A DNA stretch of 64,000 bases from Fimbriimonas sp. (GTDB lineage: Bacteria; Armatimonadota; Fimbriimonadia; Fimbriimonadales; Fimbriimonadaceae), in the NCBI GenBank assembly GCA_031292555.1, contig JARLGV010000089.1, forward strand, positions 1 to 64,000. Reading direction: 5' to 3'. Under the pieces are notes generated by a model. The model saw only the letters and a list, made by a program, of their open reading frames with translations, ran no database searches and was not told where the DNA came from. The position numbers were made by a program, and so were the translations under genes. Of this stretch, positions 531-27,171 are shown piece by piece; the stretch's first letter is position 1; every line of letters starts with the position of its first letter.

Positions 531-2849
531 CTATCCCATATTCTTTAGGAAGGCATACACGGTTGCCGCCTTCCGATAGTATCCCCACGAAGCCATGTGA
601 ACGGCGTTCGACTGGATCGTACGTGTCACGGAGTTGTACTCGCCTTGGGCGAGCGTCGTGGTCTCAAAGTCATTCGCAGGATCGCTCGCTAGATGCGTCG
701 GGATGACCCATATCTTGTTCGTGTTCTGAGTGGCGTTGTCGTAGAGGAACAAGACGGCCTGGATCAGCAGGTCCCTGTTGCGCCTCGCACGGGCAGCCGA
801 GACTGCATAGTTCCCGTACGTATAGGCGAATCCGTCTTGCCCCGCCCAGGCTGGCGGAAGCATAAGTCCGATCCGGCAGCCTAAAACCGCCGATTGGCAG
901 CTAGTTATGAACGAAGAGAGGTTTGAAAGGTAAGTCGCGATACTCATCCAGGCAGCCGCGTCGGTCGTTGAGTTGATCACGTCGTTTGTGCCCATGTCGA
1001 TCAGGAACCAGTCGTTCGTTGACATGGTGATTGAGTTGTTCGACAGGTAGGACGAGATCGAGAACGAGCCACCAATGTAGAACGGACCGTGGCCGCTGTT
1101 GTAGCTTCCGTTGGTCGGTAGACCCGTAACAAAGAAGTTCAGCGTCTGTCCGGGCCAAGTCTCACAAAAGATGTTCCGGTTCGTGCTTGTCGAGTCATTC
1201 GCGTTCGTGGCAGCCGCTGAGGTGTCGTTCGTCCCAAGGTTCGCACCGACCTCGGTGAACGAGGTCCCCGTGCCCGTCGAAGAGAGGTACACGAGCTGGG
1301 CGAGCCAATACGCGCCGGCGCCGGCCGAGCCGCTAGTGGAATCGCCGATCGTGAGTACCTTGTGAGAACTGGTTCCGGCCGCGAGAGTGCAGAAGTTCAG
1401 CGTCGGCTGCAGCGACTGCACGAGCACCCCGCCGTTGTAGACGTTGAATGCCATAGTCGCCGTGCCGGCATCTCCGTTTACGGGAGTGTAGGCCCACCGA
1501 TCGGAGTAAAGCGTCCCCTTGGTCGAGGACATGGTGAATCGGAAGGTAGACGCCGGTGAGCCGATCGACTCATGTTCGAGTGGAAAGCCCAGCGCGCCAT
1601 CCAGAGACACGAACTCCTCCAGACCCGTGATTCCGTACAGATTCCGGGTCATCAGCGGGAAGGGAGCAGAGAGATTTGCCGCCTGGTTCCGCAACTGCAC
1701 CGCGAAATCGTCCGGGCCGTTAGCCTGCCAGTCAGCCCAGTCGATCAGCGACGCCCGGAAGTAGAGCGTGTGCTGAGCGCCGTCGTTCGCCCAGGTCGGA
1801 TAATCCACAGAGCCGTAGGTCTGATACTGCGCCTGGGCGTACGATGAGGTTGGGTACGTGTTCAGTGCCAGCATCCGCGCTGCAAACCTGCCGTTGGCCA
1901 GCAGTTCCACCCAAAGGTTCGAGCCCTGGATGATCGCCGGAAAGTCGAAACGTAGCCGCCTGATCTGCCCGGGGATCAGCGGAATGTTGTAGAGAACCTT
2001 GTCGCCGAGGATCGTACCAGTCGAGCTCGAAATTCGGAACCGGCAGCGAAACGTGGTCGGCAATGGCGCCGCCGCCGTCGTTCCAGCCTCCAAGTCGAAC
2101 TCGGCCCGGTTGAACGCAAGTTGCGATCCGCACGGCCCGCCATAGGCCGTCTCCGTGGCGTTCGTGTAGGCGAACGTGTTTGTGATCGTCCCGTCATCGA
2201 ACTGCCCCAGGCACGGACCCAGCCCGTAGCGAACATACTTGCAGTATTGGGCACCCTCATTCTGCCAAACCGGTGAAGTCGTGATGTTCCCGTTCGTGTT
2301 TGTGCAGTACTGGGTCTGCGGGTACGTCGAATTCGGATACAGACCGGGAGAATCGAGCTGTACCTCGCCCAGGTGCCCGTCCGTGATCCATTGAACCACG
2401 ACGATATCTCCCGTGCTGACCGTCGTGTTTAGGTTCACCCGGACCAAGGAAGGGATGTTCACCTTCAGTCCGGATAGACCGGCGTACCCGGTCGCCAGGA
2501 TCGTGCCCGTATTGGTCGTATCCCTAACAACGACCTCGATAACGGTCGGAACCGCCCCGGCATCCCACGCTGGTACCCACGTGTCGACGAAGTTGAAAGC
2601 CGAGACCGGAACCCCGATCGTGGTTGACCAACCTGTGAAGGTCGAGGTCGCATTCGTCGGTGCCTGACTCGAGGGCCCAGAAGCAGCATACGATCTGGCC
2701 GGCAGTGCGCCGACTCCATCGACAAGGTCTGAGAAAAGGCCAGGGTTCTTCGAACTGACGATCGCCGTAGCCTGCCCACGAGTTAGCGGCTGCTGGCCCA
2801 AGCAGACGGCCGCCATAAACAACGCGGCAAACCAAAAAATCCCCCTCAC
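531..2849 (-). CDS. Secreted SGNH-hydrolase tail-associated protein
   Basis: The protein has 772 residues from a GTG start that overlaps the previous stop (GTGA), with AGGTGG just upstream. A Sec-like signal peptide ends near CLGQQ. The N-terminal two-thirds is beta-rich and unrecognised. The C-terminal third has SGNH-hydrolase blocks: TIGDST (block I serine), MGTNDV (block III) and NAVHMASWGY as block V, where the usual Asp before His is Asn. Such esterases deacylate polysaccharides, which suits a phage depolymerase acting on acylated surface sugar. It is the last gene of the operon. A Sec signal on a tail-operon protein is odd, because virion proteins normally assemble in the cytoplasm. Confidence 0.7.
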   Translation of the reverse strand: MRGIFWFAALFMAAVCLGQQPLTRGQATAIVSSKNPGLFSDLVDGVGALPARSYAASGPSSQAPTNATSTFTGWSTTIGVPVSAFNFVDTWVPAWDAGAVPTVIEVVVRDTTNTGTILATGYAGLSGLKVNIPSLVRVNLNTTVSTGDIVVVQWITDGHLGEVQLDSPGLYPNSTYPQTQYCTNTNGNITTSPVWQNEGAQYCKYVRYGLGPCLGQFDDGTITNTFAYTNATETAYGGPCGSQLAFNRAEFDLEAGTTAAAPLPTTFRCRFRISSSTGTILGDKVLYNIPLIPGQIRRLRFDFPAIIQGSNLWVELLANGRFAARMLALNTYPTSSYAQAQYQTYGSVDYPTWANDGAQHTLYFRASLIDWADWQANGPDDFAVQLRNQAANLSAPFPLMTRNLYGITGLEEFVSLDGALGFPLEHESIGSPASTFRFTMSSTKGTLYSDRWAYTPVNGDAGTATMAFNVYNGGVLVQSLQPTLNFCTLAAGTSSHKVLTIGDSTSGSAGAGAYWLAQLVYLSSTGTGTSFTEVGANLGTNDTSAAATNANDSTSTNRNIFCETWPGQTLNFFVTGLPTNGSYNSGHGPFYIGGSFSISSYLSNNSITMSTNDWFLIDMGTNDVINSTTDAAAWMSIATYLSNLSSFITSCQSAVLGCRIGLMLPPAWAGQDGFAYTYGNYAVSAARARRNRDLLIQAVLFLYDNATQNTNKIWVIPTHLASDPANDFETTTLAQGEYNSVTRTIQSNAVHMASWGYYRKAATVYAFLKNMG

Positions 2850-3097
2850 GAAGCCACCTCTCCCGGGTCGACGTACCGGCCGGCAGACCAAACCGCGCCG
2901 CCGAGGTCGGTCACGCCCGGGGCAAGGGACCAAGCTCCCGACAAGAGGCAGGACTGAACGGCGGCGACCGCCACCGGAACGGTCTGGAACCCGCCGCAGT
3001 TGGGCTGTCGCTGATTGACGAGTTGCTGGGATGCGTCGCCGGCGACGAGGCTGCCGGGCTCCCAGTAGTTGCCGTTGGAATCGATATAGACGCTCAT
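2846..3097 (-). CDS. Small protein of the tail operon
   Basis: The 83-residue protein starts at an ATG overlapping the upstream stop (TGATG) and ends in a GTGA overlap with the SGNH gene, so it is translationally coupled on both sides. The sequence begins MSVYIDSNGNYWEPGSL and carries two cysteines. It shows no signal peptide and no family I recognise. It may be a small structural or chaperone protein for the tail-tip proteins around it. Confidence 0.55.
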   Translation of the reverse strand: MSVYIDSNGNYWEPGSLVAGDASQQLVNQRQPNCGGFQTVPVAVAAVQSCLLSGAWSLAPGVTDLGGAVWSAGRYVDPGEVAS

Positions 3098-4077
3098 CAG
3101 TTGTATCCCAGGGAAACGTCGACGCCCGTCGAAGGGGCGGTCGAGCCGTTGTAGGCGGTCACGCAAACGATGTAGATCGAGCCCGAGAGGGTCTCGGGGA
3201 TCACGAACTTGGACTCGAACGGCTGCGTCGATGCGCCCAGCGTAAAGTGGTCGAAGGGAACTGTGCTTCCCAGCGTCGGCGAGGTCGTGAACAGCTCCAC
3301 GCTCACCGTCCCCGATCCGTTCGGGTTGTAGATCCGGATGTGATAGACGTTTCCGCTCGACGCCTTCACCTGGACCGGCGTATTGGAGAGAGCCCCGTTC
3401 TGGTACACGTTCGTCATGCCCGGCGCGCTGCCCGCCGAGCCCACTCCGAGCGGATACGTCGCCGGCGGCGCCGTCTGGGTCTGGGCCGGTGCGGTGTAGT
3501 AAGTAATAACGCCGGTGATGGTCCCCGACGAGTAGGTCGACACGTTCAGCTTGATCGAGGATCCGGCCACGTTCCCGCAGTAGGCGATGCTCGATGCCGA
3601 CGGTGCAAACGGCGTGGTCGTAAGTCCGCCTGAGTTTAGGACGTTCGAAACCGTCATCATCACGGCATAGGAACTCGTCCACGAGTTGGAGCTCTGCAGG
3701 ATCTGAACCTGATTGCCGGACCCGACCGACGAGAACGTGAGCGACACGCCTCGAATGACGCCCGGCGCCGCGTTGACCACCGTCGCCGCCACGTCCCCCG
3801 AGGCCGATACCGAGAACGGAAGCTGGATCGCGGTGCCCGAGGTCAGCAAAGCGTTCCCGCCCGCCGCCGTGCCGGCGCTGCCGGACGCGACGTTCGGCGA
3901 GAGCGATCCGTCCGTGATCTTGTTCGACCACGTTCCGCTCTGCGAGGACGACACCTTGGCCGCCCCCGACAGCAGCACCTGAATCAGCGACCCCGTCCCC
4001 TGCTGCCCGGGCGCCGGAACCACCAGCGCCAACACCAGGGCAACCAGCCCAAGCAGCCAGATCAGGCGAGCTCTCAT
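3097..4077 (-). CDS. Secreted beta-rich protein of the tail operon
   Basis: The protein has 326 residues. Its ATG overlaps the stop of the gene before it (ATGA). The first 26 residues are a clear Sec signal (MRARLIWLLGLVALVLALVV then an Ala/Gly-rich cleavage region). The rest is rich in Ser, Thr, Gly and Val, as in beta-sandwich or fibre proteins, with no motif I can assign. It belongs to a block of three signal-bearing proteins at the distal end of the virion operon. It could be a receptor-binding or surface-displayed accessory protein. Function unknown. Confidence 0.55.
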   Translation of the reverse strand: MRARLIWLLGLVALVLALVVPAPGQQGTGSLIQVLLSGAAKVSSSQSGTWSNKITDGSLSPNVASGSAGTAAGGNALLTSGTAIQLPFSVSASGDVAATVVNAAPGVIRGVSLTFSSVGSGNQVQILQSSNSWTSSYAVMMTVSNVLNSGGLTTTPFAPSASSIAYCGNVAGSSIKLNVSTYSSGTITGVITYYTAPAQTQTAPPATYPLGVGSAGSAPGMTNVYQNGALSNTPVQVKASSGNVYHIRIYNPNGSGTVSVELFTTSPTLGSTVPFDHFTLGASTQPFESKFVIPETLSGSIYIVCVTAYNGSTAPSTGVDVSLGYN

Positions 4078-5015
4078 CGAACCCTCCCGAACCGGTCGTA
4101 GTCGCCGACATAGAACTGGATTGGCGTCGAGGCGTTCGGCCCGTACCCGGCGTTGAACCCGTATGAACCCGTTCCCGATGCGCCCGTTGCCAGACCGCCG
4201 GCGTTGATCGCCAGGGTGGGGACGTTGGCGGTTCCGGTTAGGCAACGCACGATGAGGTAGGCGGGGGAGATCGGCAACGCCGCGATCGGATGGATTCCGT
4301 CTGGTTTGGCATTCAGAATGCCGAATGCGATGCCCAAGCTGGCCGACGGGCTCACCGCTACTGTCACCGCCGACCAGGCAACGCCGCTCGAATCGACGAG
4401 CGGAATAGTCGTCCCGTTCGCATCGCGAAACTCGATGCCCGCCGTAACTCCGGCTCCGCCGATATCGGCCAAACAGAGCGCAAGCGGGTTGACATTGACC
4501 GGCATGGCGGGATCGCTGACGCTTGCCGAGCCGGAGGCCAGGCTCGAAAGGACGACTCCTCCCGCCGAGATCGTATAGGTGACGCCCGAACCGAAGATGG
4601 TTGGTGAGCCCGCGTCGGGAGCGGGATATCCGGTCGCAATGCCGTTGCCGGCCCCCGGCGAGGAGTCGAACGTTCCGACCGGCGACTCGGTGGCGCTTCC
4701 GCTCGCCACACGGACCACGAGCGCGTATTGAGCGGAGGAGGGTGTCCGGAGTGGATGGATGCCATCTGGCGACGTCTGGGTGATCTGCCACCCGAGGCCC
4801 ACTGCGATACCGGATGGGATGGTAAGGGTCACATGGGAATAGGTTGTGCCGGCCGTATCAGTGAACGGCAGCACCTGACCCTGGGCGTTTCGCATTTCGA
4901 CAACCTCGGTCGCCCCTGCGGAGGAGAAGAATGCCGCCTGACACGGCAGAACGGGCACGCCCGGCGGATTGGTCTGGCGGCCGAGTGCCGCTAAAGCTAG
5001 CAATGAGAGGATCAT
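4074..5015 (-). CDS. Secreted protein with two tandem repeat domains
   Basis: The protein has 313 residues from an ATG preceded by AAAAGGAG at seven bases. A short signal-like N-terminus (MILSLLALAALG) is followed by two homologous halves. Each has a stretch like VEMRNAQGQVLPF or IEFRDANGTTIPL, and later the shared element PDGIHP, so the gene arose by internal duplication. It is the first gene of the distal sub-operon and diverges from the glycosyltransferase, with 64 bases between them. No catalytic motif is visible. It may be a fibre or adhesin-like protein. Confidence 0.55.
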   Translation of the reverse strand: MILSLLALAALGRQTNPPGVPVLPCQAAFFSSAGATEVVEMRNAQGQVLPFTDTAGTTYSHVTLTIPSGIAVGLGWQITQTSPDGIHPLRTPSSAQYALVVRVASGSATESPVGTFDSSPGAGNGIATGYPAPDAGSPTIFGSGVTYTISAGGVVLSSLASGSASVSDPAMPVNVNPLALCLADIGGAGVTAGIEFRDANGTTIPLVDSSGVAWSAVTVAVSPSASLGIAFGILNAKPDGIHPIAALPISPAYLIVRCLTGTANVPTLAINAGGLATGASGTGSYGFNAGYGPNASTPIQFYVGDYDRFGRVR

Positions 5016-5065
5016 AGGGGCTCCTTTTCGTTTGAGGGAGGGAAAATCGTCGATTCGAGGGCGTC

Positions 5066-13492: not shown

Positions 13493-13598
13493 AAGTAGGG
13501 TTTGACGCTCCGCGTTTCCTTATCGAGATCCTAGGTATTTCGACGTACCGAATTGGTGTGACCCCAAAGTAGCGACCGTGGAATTTGAGAGGTGTTTG

Positions 13599-13604
13599 TA
13601 TAAT
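13599..13604 (+). promoter_or_regulatory. -10 box of the prepilin gene
   Basis: TATAAT, preceded by TG, lies 25 bases before the chosen prepilin start at 13630. No clear -35 hexamer is seen at 16-18 bases. It gives the prepilin its own plus-strand promoter inside the minus-strand tail operon. Confidence 0.55.
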
Positions 13605-13629
13605 TACCTTTATGAAGGACGATGTTAGA

Positions 13630-13998
13630 ATGTCCCGCTATAGGAAAGGATTTACACTCATCGAACTTCTTGTGGTGGTGTTGATTCTCGGCATCCTCAC
13701 GGCAATCGCATTGCCTGCTTACCTAAGTAGTGTTCAATTCAACCGGCAAGGCACTGCAAACGCCAACGCTCGGTCTTTGTCCATTGCGGTTCAGGCGGCC
13801 GCTATTGCGCCGCACACCTACGACACGACGCTCGCCGACTATTCGGCATCGATGGGAGGTTCATTGCCCTCGAACCCCTGCACCGGTACGACCACCGGGT
13901 TCACGATCACCGCTTCTGGGGCAACTGCGACCGTTTCGGCCAACACAGGAACGAATTGCGGAGCTTGGACGCCGTTGACGTTCAACCTCGCCCTATAG
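13630..13998 (+). CDS. Type IV prepilin-like protein inside the tail operon
   Basis: The 122-residue protein begins MSRYRKG followed by FTLIELLVVVLILGILTAI: a short basic leader, the prepilin peptidase site after KG, phenylalanine at +1, glutamate at +5, and the hydrophobic assembly helix. AAGGA lies ten bases before this ATG; an in-frame ATG at 13612 is also possible. The C-terminal part has two cysteines (NPCTG and NCGAW) that could form the pilin D-loop disulphide. It lies between tail tube and tail chaperone genes but on the opposite strand with its own -10 box, so it is cargo rather than a virion gene. It would be processed and exported by a type IV pilus or type II secretion machine. 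Confidence 0.85.
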   Translation: MSRYRKGFTLIELLVVVLILGILTAIALPAYLSSVQFNRQGTANANARSLSIAVQAAAIAPHTYDTTLADYSASMGGSLPSNPCTGTTTGFTITASGATATVSANTGTNCGAWTPLTFNLAL

Positions 13999-16380: not shown

Positions 16381-17421
16381 TCAGCACCTGAACGGCACGA
16401 TCGCCGAAGGGAAGTAGAAGGCAGGGGCGCCGTTGAACGCAAGGGTCGAGATCCCCCGTGCCGGGTTCTTCTTCAACTCGAAATCAAAGTAGATGTTCGA
16501 GAAGTCCCCCGCTCCCAGATTGCCTCCGGCTCGGATCAAGTCGGCGTGCCGGGTGAAGATGAACTCCGCCACCGGATCGCTGTAATCCCGGGCGCCGACG
16601 AGAACGCCGTATCCCTGGGGAAGGAACAGGTTTACGTTCCCGCTCTCATCCAGGTAAGAGTCGTCGTACTCCACGACCTGCGGAAGGTCGGCTTCGAGGA
16701 GGTACCGATTTACGTCGGCGAGCGTCATCGGCTGCGCACCTGCGTTCACCGTGATGACCCGCTTCGCGCCAAGGTCGTTCGGGTTCGTGTTCGACAGAAG
16801 CGAGTTCACGTCTTGGCTGTTCAGGAATAGCTTGGCGTTCCGCCCGAAACTCACGCTGTGGCCGCGGTGGCGCAGTTTCGCGTTGCGCAGGTCCAGTAAG
16901 GGCGTCGCGGTGGCCACGTTCGACCAAGCGGAGGCCACGTTGAAAGGCGACAGGTTGAACGTGTCGGTCATGATCAACTGGCCGAGCGGACCCAAGACCG
17001 AGTAGGCGCCGGTCGTGAAGAGCGTCCAGCCAACCTGCTTGATTCGTTGGATCATGCGCGTGATGAGATGATCTTGGTCGCCCGCCTGTGCCTCAGTGAG
17101 GTCGATCGCGGTTCCAAAGCTTCCGGCCTGGCGCGAGTTGGTGAGCCAATCCTCGGTCATGGTCTTCTGGTCGCCGTACGGCGCTGGATCGACGCCGAAT
17201 CGGCTGACCGCCTCGCGGTTCACTCGGCCGTAGCCGCCATCGTAGCCGCGCGCCGCCGTGAGACCGACGTAGTTGCCGCGCTGGTCCCAGACGATTCGCG
17301 CGACGTCCTTCGACTTGACCGGCATCAGCTCGAAGAGCGGGTCGCTCATGGTGAGCACCGGCAGCTTGTCCTGAAGGATCATGCTGAGTTCGGCGTTCTG
17401 GGCGTAGACGTATGTGCTCAT
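16381..17421 (-). CDS. Major capsid protein (E-like)
   Basis: The 346-residue protein directly follows a lambda-D-like decoration gene, the D-E order of lambda. Its length matches the lambda E family (about 340). Segments such as FELMPVKSKDVARIVWDQRGNYVGLT near the start and RADLI or NIYFDFELKKNPARG near the end fit this capsid family. It should form the icosahedral shell after the scaffold is removed by the protease encoded upstream. Confidence 0.7.
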   Translation of the reverse strand: MSTYVYAQNAELSMILQDKLPVLTMSDPLFELMPVKSKDVARIVWDQRGNYVGLTAARGYDGGYGRVNREAVSRFGVDPAPYGDQKTMTEDWLTNSRQAGSFGTAIDLTEAQAGDQDHLITRMIQRIKQVGWTLFTTGAYSVLGPLGQLIMTDTFNLSPFNVASAWSNVATATPLLDLRNAKLRHRGHSVSFGRNAKLFLNSQDVNSLLSNTNPNDLGAKRVITVNAGAQPMTLADVNRYLLEADLPQVVEYDDSYLDESGNVNLFLPQGYGVLVGARDYSDPVAEFIFTRHADLIRAGGNLGAGDFSNIYFDFELKKNPARGISTLAFNGAPAFYFPSAIVPFRC

Positions 17422-17425
17422 CGAA

Positions 17426-18181
17426 TCAAGCTCCTGTTACGCAGAGCACGCCGCTGGACGTGGTGCCGTCGATCAGGCGGCCCAACTTGGCGACCGCGTT
17501 CGCGTCGAGGCCGGTGAGGTCGGCCGTGTTGAAATAGCCTGAGATCGCGATCGGGGCGACGTGGCGGACCGCGCCGAATCCGTTGCCCGTCGGCAGCGGG
17601 CCGAACGACACATTGCCCTGAGCGTCGGTGGAGACCTCGAGGACGAGGATGCCGACCGGCGTCTGGGACCCGTCCGTGTTGGTGGACACGTACGGCTCAA
17701 GCGTCCCGTTGGCGACGCCCTGAGTCGTATGGGCGACCGTCACCACCGCGCCCGAACCGGTCAATGCGGCGTTGTTGATCGCCATTAATGGCTGGGGTTG
17801 ATTTGCGAGGGCGCCAGTGAAGTTGCAAACGACGCCGGCCGATCCGAGCGCCCCGCCGGTGCAGGTCACATTGCTCGCACCGATGTTCGGCAGGGCCTGG
17901 AGTGCCGCCTGAACAGTCGCCGCCGAGGCGTTGTAGGCGATCGGCGCTGTCGTATAGACCGTACCGAACCCGAACGTGATGGTGAACGAGCCACCGGTCG
18001 CGCTTGACTGGGTCAGGGTCTGCACGTCGCTTGCCGAGTTGGACGTCACGAGACCGACTACGGCCCCTTTGACCATGTGCTGGTTCGCGGCGACTGGCAA
18101 TGCAGCCTTGAGCATCCTCTCGGGGAACATCGACGGGGTCAGCTCCGACTGAGTGTAGATATCGTAAGGTGCGATGGGCAC
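17426..18181 (-). CDS. Capsid decoration protein with an inserted beta domain
   Basis: The 251-residue protein starts immediately after the protease gene stop. Its ends look like a head-decoration protein: the N-terminus has ALPVAANQHMVKGAVVG and the C-terminus has GYFNTADLTGLDANAVAKLG. Between them (residues about 60-160) is an extra beta domain with NASAATVQAALQALPNIG and an ITFTGALANQ-like strand, a module often repeated in phage and surface proteins. It would sit on the outside of the capsid and could bind the host surface or another ligand. Confidence 0.65.
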   Translation of the reverse strand: MPIAPYDIYTQSELTPSMFPERMLKAALPVAANQHMVKGAVVGLVTSNSASDVQTLTQSSATGGSFTITFGFGTVYTTAPIAYNASAATVQAALQALPNIGASNVTCTGGALGSAGVVCNFTGALANQPQPLMAINNAALTGSGAVVTVAHTTQGVANGTLEPYVSTNTDGSQTPVGILVLEVSTDAQGNVSFGPLPTGNGFGAVRHVAPIAISGYFNTADLTGLDANAVAKLGRLIDGTTSSGVLCVTGA

Positions 18182-19129
18182 TTAGCGAACCTCCTTGTGG
18201 GTGAGCCGGCCCAGATGAGTCGATTGGCGAAGCCGTTCGACCATCGAGGCGTCCGGCGCGTCGGTATCCGCATTCGGGTCGGCGTTCGGGATCTGGGTCG
18301 TGAACAGGCTATGGGGAACGGCATCCTTGAAAAGCTCTCGAAGCGCGGCGAGGTTCGAACCCTCCGCGATCTGACCGTCCTCCGAAAACCGAATTCTGCC
18401 TTGGCCGTCCGCGATCGCCGCCGCTTTGAACAGTGCGGCGAGGCTGGCGCGCTGGGCGGGCACCGCCTTGGAGGCACGGATCGTCTCGTCGGCAAACCTT
18501 TCGGCCGCCGTCGCGACGTGGGCGGTTACGAGCCGCTCGTTCGTCGTGCGGAACTCGGAAAGCTGGGCCGCGATTGAGGGATCGATCTGGGCTTCCGGTC
18601 GTGCCGGCGTGGGAACGGCGAAAGCGGCGTCCAATTCGGCCGGATCGATTCCGGCTTCGGTGACCGCGTCTGGGGCCTTCTTGAAGAGCACTCGGAGGCG
18701 GTCGGTCAATGTCTGATGCATAGGTTCTGTCTCCTGATTGGGTGGCGAGGCCGGTGGTTCGGCCTGGGCGATGGAGAATGCCGCCGCCACTTCGGCATCC
18801 CGGATTCGGGGGCTGAGCGTGAGGGCGCAGCCGACGATGTTCTTTGCGTGGTCGAAGGTGAGGGAAGTCTGGAGGTGGCCGCCGCACAGTTCGTGCAGCC
18901 ACCGCGGGATCGCGAGCCGGCCCATTGCGTTCCGGCCATCGAGCCAGATGCGTTCGAGCCGCCCGAGCCGGTGCCCGAGCAGGTCGCGGAACGGCGAATG
19001 CTCAAGGTCGAGATCGACGCCGGCGAACGCCCGGACCCGGTCCGCAAGTTCCTCCGAAGAGATCGCGAACCCTTTGTCCGGGTACTCCCCTGCCTCAAAG
19101 ACCTTGCCGACGTATGTGATAGTGTTCAT
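18182..19129 (-). CDS. Prohead protease/scaffold-like protein
   Basis: I take the ATG at 19129 (MNTITYVGKVFEAGEY), giving 315 residues. The first 130 residues look like a phage protease domain (ELADRVRAFAGVDLDLEHSPF with a likely catalytic His, then MGRLAI and LQTSLTFD). The remainder is helical and charged, like the scaffold part of lambda C/Nu3 or Mu I/Z proteins. The frame stays open upstream to 19408 through three repeat copies, but that part is repeat-derived. No ribosome site precedes the ATG, and a repeat array ends only about 15 bases upstream, so the original 5' end may have been altered. Confidence 0.6.
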   Translation of the reverse strand: MNTITYVGKVFEAGEYPDKGFAISSEELADRVRAFAGVDLDLEHSPFRDLLGHRLGRLERIWLDGRNAMGRLAIPRWLHELCGGHLQTSLTFDHAKNIVGCALTLSPRIRDAEVAAAFSIAQAEPPASPPNQETEPMHQTLTDRLRVLFKKAPDAVTEAGIDPAELDAAFAVPTPARPEAQIDPSIAAQLSEFRTTNERLVTAHVATAAERFADETIRASKAVPAQRASLAALFKAAAIADGQGRIRFSEDGQIAEGSNLAALRELFKDAVPHSLFTTQIPNADPNADTDAPDASMVERLRQSTHLGRLTHKEVR

Positions 19130-19144
19130 TTGGAAATTGGAGCG

Positions 19145-19320
19145 CCCCCCCGTAGCCGCTGCCTCCGTGGCAGCGCCAGAAACCAACGGGACATGGACCC
19201 TGAAGCGAAGCCCGCAGCCCCCGTAGCCGCTGCCTCCGTGGCAGCGCCAGAAATCAACGGGACATGGGCCCTGAAGCGAAGCCCGCAGCCCCCGTAGCCG
19301 CTGCCTCCGTGGCAGCGCAA
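19145..19320 (+). repeat. Tandem array of three hairpin repeats, 71-bp period
   Basis: The core CGCTGCCTCCGTGGCAGCG occurs at 19157-19175, 19228-19246 and 19299-19317, exactly 71 bases apart. The flanks also repeat: GCAGCCCCCGTAGC before and CAGAAAYCAACGGGACATGG after. Confidence 0.9.
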
Positions 19321-19433
19321 GAAACCCAACGGGACGCGGCACATCCTGGTAGACGACGGTGTTGGATCGATCGCCTAGCGCGGCCGCCGTGACCGGCCCA
19401 TCCGCCACTCCTCTGCCGGAGGGGATCGCGTCG

Positions 19434-19452
19434 CGCTGCCACGGAGGCAGCG
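19434..19452 (-). repeat. Hairpin repeat copy, inverted
   Basis: The same 19-base core on the opposite strand. It stands 95 bases beyond the 3' end of the second pseudopilin gene, so the gene pair lies between oppositely oriented copies (this one and 20097-20115). Confidence 0.85.
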
Positions 19453-19546
19453 GCTATCGTGGGCTGCGGCTGGGTCCGGGCACGGTGGCATGCGGGAGGG
19501 TTTCGAAGGGGCCCGTGCTTGGCCGCACGCCGCGCTCCGCGAGAAG

Positions 19547-19996
19547 CTACTCGTCGCTTCCCACGGTCAGGTCGGCCCTTTCGCCGGTTCCGCCGGGGGC
19601 GCCGTCGGCTCCGTAGGATGTGACGGCGAAGCCTTTGCCGGCCGGGCCGGGGCATCGGTAGCGATAGGCGTAGCCCCAGTCGTCGCGGAGCAAGCGCATG
19701 TTCAGATACGGACCTGACCACCCTTGAATCCCGGCGGGCTTTACGTACAACGCCTGCAAACCTTCCCTCTGATGTGGATACCGGCCGCAGTCCACGCGGA
19801 ACTGATCGATGGCGTTGCTCAGGGTGGCAAGGTCAGAGAGGGTCTTGGCTTGCCGACTGCTTCGTCCACCCAGGATCGTCGGCATGAAGTATGCAGCCGC
19901 GAACCCGGACAGGAGGATTGCTCCGGCGACAACTGTTACTACGAACCCCCTCGTTCGGATTTGGATCGTTTGTGGCAGTTCAATCATCGACGGCAA
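19547..19996 (-). CDS. Pseudopilin GspG-like protein, copy 2
   Basis: The 149-residue protein has one membrane helix (about 18-40) and a C-terminal GspG-type domain: AIDQFRVDCGRYPHQREGLQ, then GPYLNMR, DDWGYAYRYRCPG and SYGADGAPGGTGE. In type II secretion the G pseudopilin forms the pseudopilus shaft with calcium bound near this C-terminus. The N-terminus lacks the G-F-T-L-x-E cleavage motif, so it is probably an uncleaved membrane protein. It is closely similar to the gene at 20273-20722 (tandem duplication). Both lie in the phage head operon where a Mu-F-like minor head gene would be expected. Confidence 0.8.
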   Translation of the reverse strand: MPSMIELPQTIQIRTRGFVVTVVAGAILLSGFAAAYFMPTILGGRSSRQAKTLSDLATLSNAIDQFRVDCGRYPHQREGLQALYVKPAGIQGWSGPYLNMRLLRDDWGYAYRYRCPGPAGKGFAVTSYGADGAPGGTGERADLTVGSDE

Positions 19997-20096
19997 TTCC
20001 CCCTGCTAACTGTCTAGACGACCCAGCCGAACGCCCGTTCGATCATTGGGGTTAGAGTTCACCAATACTTGTACCGGAGCCCGCTGCCCCCGTAGC

Positions 20097-20115
20097 CGCT
20101 GCCTCCGTGGCAGCG
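20097..20115 (+). repeat. Hairpin repeat copy between the pseudopilin genes
   Basis: Core CGCTGCCTCCGTGGCAGCG with the usual CCCCCGTAGC before it and an AGAAACCGAATGGGACACGG flank after it, like the 19-kb array. It lies between the two pseudopilin genes, about 100 bases upstream of copy 2. Confidence 0.85.
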
Positions 20116-20272
20116 CTAGAAACCGAATGGGACACGGCGCATGAGGATGGACGACAGATCGGAGAGGGCGACGAATCGATCATCGGGCACTGCTGTGGCC
20201 GACTTTTCTGCCATTCTCGTGCCTTTGGAGTACGCTTCGCGCAGCTACGGAGGCGACGAGGGTTGCTACCCG

Positions 20273-20722
20273 CTACTCATCGCTTCCGTTCGAGATGTCC
20301 GCGTCATCGCCAGTGCCTCCGGGGCGACCGTCGGCTCCGTAGGACAGGACTTGATAGCCCCTACCCGTCGGGCTTGGACAGCGATAGTGATAGGGGAACC
20401 CCCATACGTCGGGGGGCATCCGCATTTTCAGATACGGTCCATTCCAGCCTTTTGCGTCGACGGGCTTGTCGTATAGTGCCGAGAACCCCTCGCTTTGCTT
20501 GGGATATCGTCCGCAGTCCAAACGAAACTGATCGATCGCGTTGCTCAACGCGGCGAGATCCGCCGGGGTTCTACGAGTACTGGTGGCCGTCCTGCTAAGG
20601 ACGATGGGGAGCAAGTACAGCGCGACGAAAACGAGCAGCACGATGGACCACATCGCTATGGTGGCCATACGCCAGGGATCTCGCGTTCTCCGTACCTCCT
20701 GTTCAATGGACGCAAGATTCAT
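20273..20722 (-). CDS. Pseudopilin GspG-like protein, copy 1
   Basis: The first in-frame ATG is at 20722 (MNLASIEQEVRRTRDPW), giving 149 residues. A membrane helix spans about residues 20-40. The C-terminal half has the GspG pattern (AIDQFRLDCGRYPKQSEG, GPYLKMRMPPDVWG, YHYRCPSPTG, SYGADGRPGGTGDDADI). The canonical prepilin cleavage site and Glu+5 are missing. It begins 98 bases after the portal gene stop, on the same strand, so it is probably cotranscribed with the virion genes. With copy 2 and the plus-strand prepilin it makes three pilin-like genes in this block. Confidence 0.8.
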   Translation of the reverse strand: MNLASIEQEVRRTRDPWRMATIAMWSIVLLVFVALYLLPIVLSRTATSTRRTPADLAALSNAIDQFRLDCGRYPKQSEGFSALYDKPVDAKGWNGPYLKMRMPPDVWGFPYHYRCPSPTGRGYQVLSYGADGRPGGTGDDADISNGSDE

Positions 20723-20820: not shown

Positions 20821-22203
20821 CTAAACTCCGACCCCCGCCCTTTCCGGCAACCCAAGGATCTCCCGATCGATGTCGGGCAGTTGCGACGGGTCGATGTAGC
20901 CGGCGGTCACCAAAGAGGCGACGGCGGTGGCGTTGATCGCGAAGTCGGGGCGCGACATCTTGAGCATCGTCGCGACCGGTGTGTATCGCTCGGCGAAGGC
21001 GGCGCCGAAATTCATCTCTACGAACGGCCGGAACAACCGGTGGGTCAGCATGTCGCAGATCTCGCGCCGTACGAACTGAACGAGGTCGTCGACCACGTCT
21101 TGGGAGGCTCCGGTGTCCGCCTTCGACCCGTGCCGCGCTTCGAGCATCGCTCGCCCGGAAAGAAGGAAGGTGGTCACCATCTCCCGGTCGCAACGGTCGA
21201 AGAAGTCCTCGAAATACTGGCCATTCGAATCGGGCCGATGCACTTCGACTTTCGTCCCGCCCGGAAACGTAGCGGTGCCTCCGTTCGATAGCTGCTGCAG
21301 AATCGACTGGATCGCGGCTTGAATGTGAACGGTCTTGCCCGATACCGGATCCTGCACGTTGACTTGGTTGATGTCTTCCGGCGCGATCGCGGTGATCATC
21401 CCGCCGCCGAACTGAACCGCCGTCTTCACCGCTTCCGGCTTGACGATCTGCTTGCGGTACCAGGGATCGTATGCTCGCCGGAACCACGATTGACCTCGAG
21501 GGTCGCCATCCTTCCCGCCGAAAGTGAGCAGCATCAGCTTGCTCGGAGCAATCGCGTTGGGAATCCGATCCAACCCGTAGACGATGCCGTTGCGAAGCGC
21601 GATCGACACGCCCGGCACGACTGCGATCACGCCCCGAAGAGAGTTGTATTCATCGAGCACGAACGCATAGTTCTGACGCGGCTTGGGCCGGATGGAGCGA
21701 GGGACGACCCGGCCGGCAAGGGCGCCCGATTCGACGATTTCGGCGTCGATCTCGGCAAGCCGGTGCCCCTTGTGCATGGCATCCAGCATCTCCCACAGGA
21801 TCTTCCGGATGGGCCGGTCGGTGATCGCCAAGCGGTCGACGAACGCCTGACAGAAGTCGGCCGCCACTCGCGCCTTGGCAAACTCGGCGTGCTTGGAGGC
21901 CGGCGCATGAGGCCGGGGCTCCTCGATGCATGGCGTCACGTGGAGGTCGACGCTGAGCGTCAGAATCTTCAGATAGGCCTCCGCTCCGCCGAGCATTGCG
22001 TCATTTGCCATCCTTTCGTAGATGTCCGGCCCAAAGTCGCGCTCCGCATCGTCGATCGTCTGAGCCAGCGCCCGGTCTGTTTGCAGAAACCCGTACTCGA
22101 CCGAGGAGCCGATGTACGAGCCGACGAGGTCGGTCGCCACCGATTGCCGATCTTGAATCGGAGGTCGGCCGGTTGTCGGGCGAGGTTGCGTGCGTTTCTT
22201 CAT
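20821..22203 (-). CDS. Phage portal protein (DUF935/Mu gp29-like)
   Basis: The 460-residue protein follows the terminase by six bases. Its order and content (an N-terminal basic segment, then the central FRRAYDPWYRKQ and GGGMITAIAPEDI region, and C-terminal ATAVASLVTAGYIDPSQLPDID) fit the DUF935 portal family used by Mu-like phages. The portal forms the dodecameric ring through which DNA enters the capsid. The Mu-type portal combined with lambda-type D/E capsid genes shows module mixing. Confidence 0.8.
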   Translation of the reverse strand: MKKRTQPRPTTGRPPIQDRQSVATDLVGSYIGSSVEYGFLQTDRALAQTIDDAERDFGPDIYERMANDAMLGGAEAYLKILTLSVDLHVTPCIEEPRPHAPASKHAEFAKARVAADFCQAFVDRLAITDRPIRKILWEMLDAMHKGHRLAEIDAEIVESGALAGRVVPRSIRPKPRQNYAFVLDEYNSLRGVIAVVPGVSIALRNGIVYGLDRIPNAIAPSKLMLLTFGGKDGDPRGQSWFRRAYDPWYRKQIVKPEAVKTAVQFGGGMITAIAPEDINQVNVQDPVSGKTVHIQAAIQSILQQLSNGGTATFPGGTKVEVHRPDSNGQYFEDFFDRCDREMVTTFLLSGRAMLEARHGSKADTGASQDVVDDLVQFVRREICDMLTHRLFRPFVEMNFGAAFAERYTPVATMLKMSRPDFAINATAVASLVTAGYIDPSQLPDIDREILGLPERAGVGV

Positions 22204-22209
22204 CGTCGG

Positions 22210-23574
22210 CTATCTTCCCGCCGCATATCCCATCGCTTCCGATCGGGGCGGCATGTACGTCGGCATGGCCGGGGGATGGCCCGCCGTCAACTCGTTGAAT
22301 GCGTCGGAGGCGGCGTCGACCGAGTCGTCGTGACGGCCGTTCGGGAACTGACGAAGCTCCTCGACGAACGCGGCGTTCCACGACGCCCGGATCATCATCA
22401 CGTTCCCCGCATTGACCTGGGCGGCGAACGGATCGGCACGGACCTGCTTGTCGCCCGATACCGGGATCGCCTTGACCGCGAAACCGGCGAGCATCCGGGT
22501 CAGAGCTTGAGCCTGCTCTTTGCCGGCCTGTCCCGGATCCTGGGGCAATCGAATCGGCGTCCGAACTCCGTCCAGAGCGGCTGCCTGTCGCATGCGCTCG
22601 TTTCGTTCGTCCGGACTCCATTGTCCGCGCACGACGTCCAAGATCCAGAACCGGCCCGGTTGGTCGATGCCCATAAGAACTCCGACCGTATAGTCGCCCC
22701 CTCCCTTCGAGGAGGCGAGATCCCAGGCGCGACACCACCGAACCACGATCGGCGCTTCACTGCGGATGCCCTCGACCAAATGGCCCACCTTGAAGAACGA
22801 ACCCTCTCGAGGTGTGGGATCGCACTGGTAGAGCGCCTGGAAGGAGCGTTCGCCGAGGGCCTTCTGCTCCAGAAGCCACTCGAGCGTTCGCCGTTCGGGA
22901 CAAAGCGGCTCGCCGACGGAACGGCCAAGCGGGTCGTTCGTCGACTCGCAGATCGCAGGCAGTTTGACCACCGCCCAACGTTTTGCCTCGGACGAGTTCA
23001 GGATGCGGCCCCTCAGGTCGTCTTCATGCCACGGCGTCAGAACGAGCACTTTTTGGCCGTCCTGCTGGATTCGCGTGCTGAGTTCGTCGACGTACCACTC
23101 CCAGACCTTCTCGCGGTATGTTTCGCTCTCCGCGTCCTCGCGCCCCTTGATCGGGTCGTCGATGATCGCGAGTTCGGCTGGATTGCCGGTCAATCCCCCG
23201 CCGATCCCAACCGCGAGCAGACCGCCTCCGGCCGCCAACTCCCATTCGCTCGCCGCATTGCGATCGCTTGCGAACTTGAAGCAGTTTCGCGCCACTGCGA
23301 TGCGCCGTATCTTGCGGGCGAGTTTGTCGACGTACGACTGGTTGTAGGCGGATACGACGACGCGCAGCCGAGGATCGGACTCGAGACGGTACACCGGGTA
23401 GCGGACGGTAACCAGTTCTGACTTCCCGTGTTGAGGCGGGCAGAGCACCATCAGGTTCCGAATCTCGCCGAGGGCATGCGCCTCCAGCCGCTCCCGAATG
23501 TACACGAGGTGCGGCCAATGCCATTTGAAGATGGGGCTCACTTCCGCGAGCCACTCGGCGAAAGGAGAACTCAT
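22210..23574 (-). CDS. terL: Phage terminase large subunit
   Basis: The 454-residue protein has the packaging ATPase: Walker A at residues 46-52 (PPQHGKS) and Walker B with catalytic acid at about 134-140 (LAIIDDP), then a coupling motif in LTPWHEDD. The C-terminal RNase-H-like nuclease begins near WDLASSKGGGDYTVG and ends with an HDDSVDAASDA motif. It cuts and pumps phage DNA through the portal encoded next. There is no small terminase gene directly upstream, though the small genes between 23,900 and 24,600 include candidates too short to assign. Confidence 0.92.
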   Translation of the reverse strand: MSSPFAEWLAEVSPIFKWHWPHLVYIRERLEAHALGEIRNLMVLCPPQHGKSELVTVRYPVYRLESDPRLRVVVSAYNQSYVDKLARKIRRIAVARNCFKFASDRNAASEWELAAGGGLLAVGIGGGLTGNPAELAIIDDPIKGREDAESETYREKVWEWYVDELSTRIQQDGQKVLVLTPWHEDDLRGRILNSSEAKRWAVVKLPAICESTNDPLGRSVGEPLCPERRTLEWLLEQKALGERSFQALYQCDPTPREGSFFKVGHLVEGIRSEAPIVVRWCRAWDLASSKGGGDYTVGVLMGIDQPGRFWILDVVRGQWSPDERNERMRQAAALDGVRTPIRLPQDPGQAGKEQAQALTRMLAGFAVKAIPVSGDKQVRADPFAAQVNAGNVMMIRASWNAAFVEELRQFPNGRHDDSVDAASDAFNELTAGHPPAMPTYMPPRSEAMGYAAGR

Positions 23575-26422: not shown

Positions 26423-27082
26423 ATGGCGACGCACTCCGAACCAAAGATCAAGACCGTCGAATCGCTGCTGCTCAAGTTCGGGCTGTCGAACCGATGGCTC
26501 GCCAAGCGGCTTGGCGTCAACCACACGAGCATCAACAACTGGCTTTCGCCAGAAGGCAGCCGTCCACGGGACGCGCGTGTCTACGATCAGATGATCGATG
26601 TCCTCACGACCCATGGACCCGCCGAGCGAAACGTCGAAATGCGCCGAACCGGCGTGCGCATGATCCCGGTCTATGCGGGAATTCCGGCCGGTCAACCGAC
26701 TTCAAACAACATGGACCTAGACTACGAAGAGGTGCTCGACTGGGGCAACGACTTCGAGCGGTGGGGAAGGATCATCAATGGCTACAGCATGGCCAAGATC
26801 CTCTTACCCGGAGACATCGCCGTCTTCGAGAATCGGCGATCCGACATCGGCGACGTGGTTCACGCCTACAAAGACGGCGAGGACTGCGTCAAAGCGATCC
26901 GCGGGAATAGCGAGGCCTCGATGCTCTACAGTTTCAACGAGGATTACGAACCGTTCAGCGCCCAAGGCTGGAAGACTAAAGGCGTCCTCGTCCAAAGAAT
27001 CCGCCGAGGCGCCTACGGAGTGAAGTCGGTGGTCGACTTTCCCCACGGCCTGAAATGGGCGATGAGGCACGAGGACTTCTAG
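26423..27082 (+). CDS. CI/LexA-type phage repressor
   Basis: The 219-residue protein has an N-terminal helix-turn-helix (about 15-45, LSNRWLAKRLGVNHTSINNW) and a C-terminal S24 peptidase domain. The self-cleavage bond should be Ala85-Gly86 (PVYAG), the nucleophile Ser122 (GYSMAK), and the general-base lysine about Lys157. It should bind the palindrome upstream and fall off after RecA-stimulated cleavage, so the prophage would be DNA-damage inducible. It ends 13 bases from the tRNA-Pro 3' end. Confidence 0.88.
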   Translation: MATHSEPKIKTVESLLLKFGLSNRWLAKRLGVNHTSINNWLSPEGSRPRDARVYDQMIDVLTTHGPAERNVEMRRTGVRMIPVYAGIPAGQPTSNNMDLDYEEVLDWGNDFERWGRIINGYSMAKILLPGDIAVFENRRSDIGDVVHAYKDGEDCVKAIRGNSEASMLYSFNEDYEPFSAQGWKTKGVLVQRIRRGAYGVKSVVDFPHGLKWAMRHEDF

Positions 27083-27095
27083 CCCGTAAAGAAAG

Positions 27096-27171
27096 TGGTC
27101 GGGGCGACACGATTCGAACGTGCGACCTCATGCTCCCAAAGCACGCGCGCTACCAGCTGCGCCACGCCCCG
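27096..27171 (-). tRNA. tRNA-Pro (TGG)
   Basis: The cloverleaf runs from CGGGGCG at the 5' end to CGCCCCGA plus an encoded CCA. The anticodon loop TTTGGGA gives TGG (27138-27136), and the T arm has GTTCGAAT. The 3' end faces the repressor and prophage block, the usual geometry for tRNA-targeted integration, although no att repeat was found. Confidence 0.95.

Follow-up and report, generated by a model that had tools for sequence, protein, structure and literature searches.

GspG-like genes without a prepilin motif at a variable junction in the head operon of a Fimbriimonas prophage

Why does a prophage of Fimbriimonas sp. carry, within its head operon, two genes resembling gspG, the gene for the major pseudopilin of the type II secretion system (T2SS)? 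The window analyzed here, a stretch of 64,000 nucleotides, makes up the initial 64 kb of contig C9 in a genome (G000) of 6.46 Mb and 140 contigs. Its minus strand contains a phage head block that runs from terminase through a Mu-type portal, gene B, gene A, a protease-like gene and a decoration gene to the major capsid gene. The block starts with the large terminase subunit (22210-23574; PF17289, E 2e-18; phrog_38, E 4.7e-96), followed by the portal (20821-22203; Portal_Mu PF06074, E 1.6e-30; phrog_113 portal, E 2.1e-31), which is the upstream neighbor of gene B. Downstream of gene A lie a head maturation protease or scaffold gene (18182-19129), with a weak match to phrog_976 (E 0.0014) and homologues at the same position in two related genomes (G019 and G022) and in IMG/VR contig 3300029952_001326 (L089), and then the head decoration (17426-18181) and major capsid (16381-17421) genes. 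A CI-like repressor gene (26423-27082) and a tRNA-Pro gene (27096-27171) are located near the right edge of the prophage, and its left end falls outside contig C9. The prophage belongs to a temperate-phage lineage of Fimbriimonas-type bacteria.

The original prediction described two tandem GspG-like genes on the operon strand between portal and protease, encoding the GspG C-terminal domain and lacking the prepilin cleavage motif, and our analysis bore out all three points. Gene A (19547-19996, minus strand) encodes 146 to 149 amino acids and starts either with the TTG at the 19996 end or with an in-frame ATG at 19987, the latter preceded by a Shine-Dalgarno-like AGGGGG. Gene B (20273-20722, minus strand) starts with ATG and encodes 149 amino acids. 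Both products combine one N-terminal hydrophobic segment with a T2SSG head; in B, about 23 residues precede a 19-residue hydrophobic segment (residues 24-42), which leads into the GspG helix and head. Matches to Pfam T2SSG (PF08334) far exceeded the cutoff of 21 bits for both A (99.2 bits, E 1.8e-28) and B (104.3 bits, E 4.7e-30). With the NCBIfam gspG model TIGR01710 (equivalog cutoff, 88.85 bits), A scored below the cutoff (85.1 bits) and B above it (94.1 bits), and the remaining phage copies described below scored 87.2 to 104.6 bits. An AlphaFold2 model of B reached a pLDDT of 88, and its top Foldseek match was EpsG 4lw9 (E 1.5e-7; TM 0.72 by target); the modeled fold of the gene B product thus matches solved GspG structures. 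In profile searches, none of the seven phage copies matched N_methyl (PF07963) or TIGR02532, whereas the host GspG matched both (PF07963, E 4.7e-8). One nuance is that gene A retains an RG-F at the former cleavage position (RTRGFVVTVVAG), with Val replacing Glu at +5. The hydrophobic anchors of the phage copies are present but mutually dissimilar, and one phage-borne copy has a cleavable-looking signal peptide instead of an ordinary membrane anchor.

Comparison of the locus in related genomes revealed that its content varies. Portal homologues with 80 to 87% identity were found in G019, G020, G022 and L089, the last being the single contig recovered in IMG/VR scans. G019 represents an empty site, in which the portal (L091:175-1620) and the protease (1757-2731) are separated by a gap of 136 bp. 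The same prophage contains an open reading frame resembling an IS200/REP-associated transposase, as judged by eye (L091:8420-8953). In the genus-mate prophage of G022, the portal-protease gap holds four tandem GspG-like genes (L092:2101-2541, 2586-3023, 3046-3477 and 3474-3908), which are tightly spaced, with a 4-base overlap between the third and fourth, and the prepilin motif is absent from all four. L089 carries one intact motif-less gene at the junction (4166-4609), followed at about 4668-5055 by a decayed GspG-like copy that is still recognizable (E 2.7e-26) although several stops and a frame change interrupt it; a possible C-terminal GspG-like stub precedes the intact gene (4027-4077), with an E value of 0.35 that is not significant alone. 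The G020 contig ends within repeats about 780 bp past the portal. On the opposite strand between its terminase and portal lies a host-like gene for a 465-amino-acid membrane protein (L090:2716-4113). Together, these results provide good support for the junction being a site for a changing set of zero to four GspG-derived genes, that is, for variable phage cargo. The proposed cassette insertion or duplication therefore holds as an insertion with duplication, given the empty site in G019 and the grouping of A with B described below.

In Mu-like phages, the position between portal and protease had been expected to hold the gene for the minor head protein gpF. This is correct for distant prophages of the family, two of which encode Phage_Mu_F (PF04233) at this position (L096, E 5.5e-13; L099, E 4e-14), but not for the nearest relatives. 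The portal adjoins the protease and gpF is absent in G019, in the G009 prophage, whose portal is 38% identical to that of the window, and in Microcystis phage Mae-JY24; in the latter two, the gene right after the portal encodes an S49/SppA-type protease. The Mu-type head set of the window likewise includes the portal (PF06074) and lacks gpF, and a search for a gpF orthologue elsewhere yielded no PF04233 match over the cutoff anywhere in the window genome. Because nearer relatives lack gpF and have portal and protease adjacent with no insert present, we rejected displacement of gpF by the pseudopilin genes; loss of gpF most likely predates, and is independent of, their insertion.

The hairpin repeats reported between and beside the two genes are indeed there, with four copies (core GCCGCTGCCTCCGTGGCAGCG) between gene A and the protease (19146-19463) and one between genes B and A (20087-20157). 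The suggestion that they bound a cassette did not hold. The 24-base core occurs 34 times in the genome at no more than one mismatch, and a looser core, whose pattern is nearly palindromic so that raw counts were doubled, occurs at about 40 places. In one 1.3-kb stretch (C61:33137-34415), seven copies occur, five of them at a spacing of about 114 bases, and no pseudopilin gene was found nearby. No copy was seen in L089, and different repeats occupy the portal-protease gap in G022 and G020. Since the repeat is dispersed host-wide and other repeats are present at the site in other genomes, these hairpins are a dispersed host family and not cassette ends.

The count of three pilin-like genes in one phage block needs qualification. 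The third gene is real: an intact prepilin gene with the motif GFTLIELLVV lies inside the tail-gene block (13585-13998, plus strand). It belongs, however, to a pilin family separate from A and B, is encoded on the opposite strand, and has about a dozen host paralogues with 56 to 73% identity, several of them clustered on contig C80. The equivalent tail genes of G019 have no prepilin counterpart between them.

We asked where the junction genes came from by building a tree from the head domains alone. A and B group together, and with the L089 gene they form one clade (support 100/97); by this tree, A and B descend from the same phage ancestor as the IMG/VR gene. The nearest host relative of the window genes is GspG, and the phage-borne family stems from the GspG of the genus. 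As this relative is only 58% identical, the capture is an old one, and a recent copy of a host gene was rejected. An empty site combined with a clean, recent host copy had been named as the mark of a simple transposed insert; the empty site exists in G019, but no such host copy was found, and intact genes occupy the junction in two relatives. A survey of 85 genomes from the family recovered GspG-like genes lacking the motif in G000 (3), G020 (1), G021 (1), G022 (4), G007 (1), G066, G067 and G002. Six of these genes sit at the phage junction, and reading of the surroundings placed others amid chromosomal genes away from phages in G000 (C118:74453-74836), G020 (C79), G021 (C114), G007 (C1:535957) and G066 (C57); loss of the motif is therefore not specific to phages. 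The chromosomal copy in G021 has a lipoprotein-like Cys, and that in G020 has a signal-peptide-like start. The motif-less gene on C118 has a copy of the hairpin repeat at a distance of about 0.2 kb, which may or may not be due to chance. In the tree, copy 2 of G022 is sister to the GspG of its own host (95/84), and copy 1 groups with motif-less genes on the host chromosomes of G020 and G000 (100/91, 99/92). This topology suggests three to four separate capture origins. However, approximately unbiased (AU) tests did not reject a single origin for all phage copies (p 0.158), for the phage copies together with the host C118 and C79 copies (p 0.258), or for the four G022 copies (p 0.188), and we dropped independent captures as a firm claim.

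All seven phage copies have open frames and retain the head core, including the loop GADxxPGGxGxxAD. GspG heads have a calcium site, and this acidic loop is conserved among the motif-less copies; across eight of these copies, 31 columns of the head alignment do not vary. Between copies, pN was 0.30 to 0.46 against a pS of mostly about 0.7 to 0.85, where saturation of synonymous sites makes omega poorly measurable. For gene B and its L089 counterpart, dN was 0.45, compared with 0.09 for the portals of the same pair, such that the pseudopilin genes evolve at the protein level about five times as fast as the portal (window against L089). Given this fast evolution and the decayed copy in L089, constraint is only moderate, a pattern in keeping with a birth-and-death family.

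What might such proteins do? The reading we put forward, tentatively and with somewhat less than even confidence, is that the junction takes up zero to four GspG-derived genes whose heads act as decoys against the T2SS of the host or against a related pilus. During assembly of type 4 filaments, the leader is cleaved by the prepilin peptidase and Glu5 forms a salt bridge to the N-terminus of the neighboring subunit (PMC10191384). Proteins of the A/B type would be exported via the Sec route and would present GspG heads on a membrane anchor facing the periplasm; lacking the leader motif and Glu5, they would be neither processed nor polymerized. By binding to pseudopilins or to the assembly platform, the decoy heads could then halt or alter the T2SS of the host, or a related pilus, with the exclusion of other phages or the protection of the lysogen as the most plausible purpose. 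By this mechanism, which we infer, polymerization-dead GspG heads probably interfere with the machinery for type II secretion or for pili in the host. The host carries a complete target, namely gspE-F-G-H-I-J-K in one operon, named by reading translations by eye around confirmed GspG and GspF genes, together with several secretins. A more far-reaching version, in which the phage lineage repeatedly domesticates the host major pseudopilin as membrane-anchored, polymerization-dead decoys that form a birth-and-death array in the head operon and are dominant negative on the T2SS or pilus, strikes us as doubtful. Counting against the decoy reading are the late head operon, the fast evolution, the decayed L089 copy and the motif-less copies on host chromosomes. 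A scan for sigma-70-like promoters of A and B found none, and in combination with the position in the late head operon this is easier to reconcile with late expression than with continuous expression in the lysogen.

Some of these observations are shared with a serious competitor, namely that the genes are neutral host cargo: a permissive portal-protease gap in which GspG copies arrive and decay without benefit to the phage. We consider this quite possible. In G000, G022 and G020 alike, this gap is filled by host repeats of differing kinds, the head block of G020 contains a further host-like insert (the membrane protein gene noted above), L089 contains one decayed copy and possibly a stub, and motif-less paralogues are scattered through host chromosomes. 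Against purely passive arrival and decay, however, stand the seven intact phage copies with a head core conserved despite 40 to 60% identity, pN values well under saturated pS, and the recurrence of one protein type at one junction in three phage genomes.

Rather than opposing host secretion, the heads could serve it by lysogenic conversion, as pseudopilin-like accessory proteins or secreted proteins of the envelope that tune or widen secretion or adhesion in the manner of the chromosomal motif-less paralogues. The grouping of G022 copy 1 with such paralogues is consistent with this idea, as is the report that F. ginsengisoli has 79 PulG-type genes, 65 of them with the N-methylation motif (PMC4072686), but the genes lie inside a late head operon with no visible promoter of their own and the AU tests leave the groupings open, and we regard this explanation as improbable. 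Less probable still is a virion or lysis-stage protein, a late product that acts in the envelope at lysis or is packaged and ejected. The portal-protease position, the tight spacing with a 4-base overlap in G022 and the membrane anchor would suit such a role, yet G019 has none of these genes, which makes them dispensable, copy number ranges from zero to four, and the GspG head fold has no known virion role. Simple recent transposition of host gspG by the hairpin repeats, which do flank the genes and lie near the C118 gene, is hardly credible, because the closest host gene is so divergent, the repeat is genome-wide with no copy seen near the IMG/VR gene, and the window genes share a clade with that gene.

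If the decoy reading is true, use of the filament's own subunit in a non-polymerizing form would be a new route to blocking type 4 filaments, and studies of pseudopilus assembly would gain a naturally occurring collection of dominant-negative GspG heads from these phage genes. The portal-protease junction also marks a spot in the head operon that takes up host-derived genes. Within the collections covered, a tblastn search of 50,697 phage records with B found no GspG-like gene in a phage context. The only two matches were both from Acinetobacter (CAKLQH020000005.1 and CAKLQF020000005.1). The first is labeled Acinetobacter phage MD-2021a, but priA, lnt, kefB and epsF surround the match, indicating a bacterial chromosome that is likely mislabeled; the second bears the same name and the same match. 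PHROGs contained no GspG family matching A or B, and literature text searches found no report of phage pseudopilins.

Among known systems, A and B most resemble GspG/PulG/EpsG, the T2SS major pseudopilins (TIGR01710, PF08334), with which they share the head domain, the EpsG fold (4lw9/3fu1), a length of about 150 amino acids and a conserved loop (GADGxxGGxGxxAD). Unlike these, A and B lack the cleavage/methylation motif and Glu+5, lie outside any gsp operon, and are phage borne in zero to four copies. The "pilin" family phrog_3433 (moron category) is evidence that pilin genes travel as phage cargo, but it matches the motif-bearing 13.6-kb prepilin and not A or B. GspK and PilK are minor (pseudo)pilins of the tip-capping kind without Glu5, and such proteins retain the prepilin leader. 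Capping of the filament tip by minor (pseudo)pilins that lack Glu5 has been described (PMC10191384). A and B differ from them in having a GspG head and no leader motif. Phages are also known to disable type 4 filaments by means of small proteins unrelated to them. Aqs1 and Tip are phage inhibitors of type IV pili involved in superinfection exclusion, and we know of no inhibitor of the PfsE, Aqs1 or Tip type that derives from a pilin or pseudopilin. PfsE of Pf phage was shown experimentally to bind PilC and block superinfection (PMC8764522). Like PfsE, A and B are small proteins encoded by a phage, with a type 4 filament machine as the proposed target; unlike that of PfsE, their action is inferred, and PfsE thus offers a precedent for the aim and not for the means.
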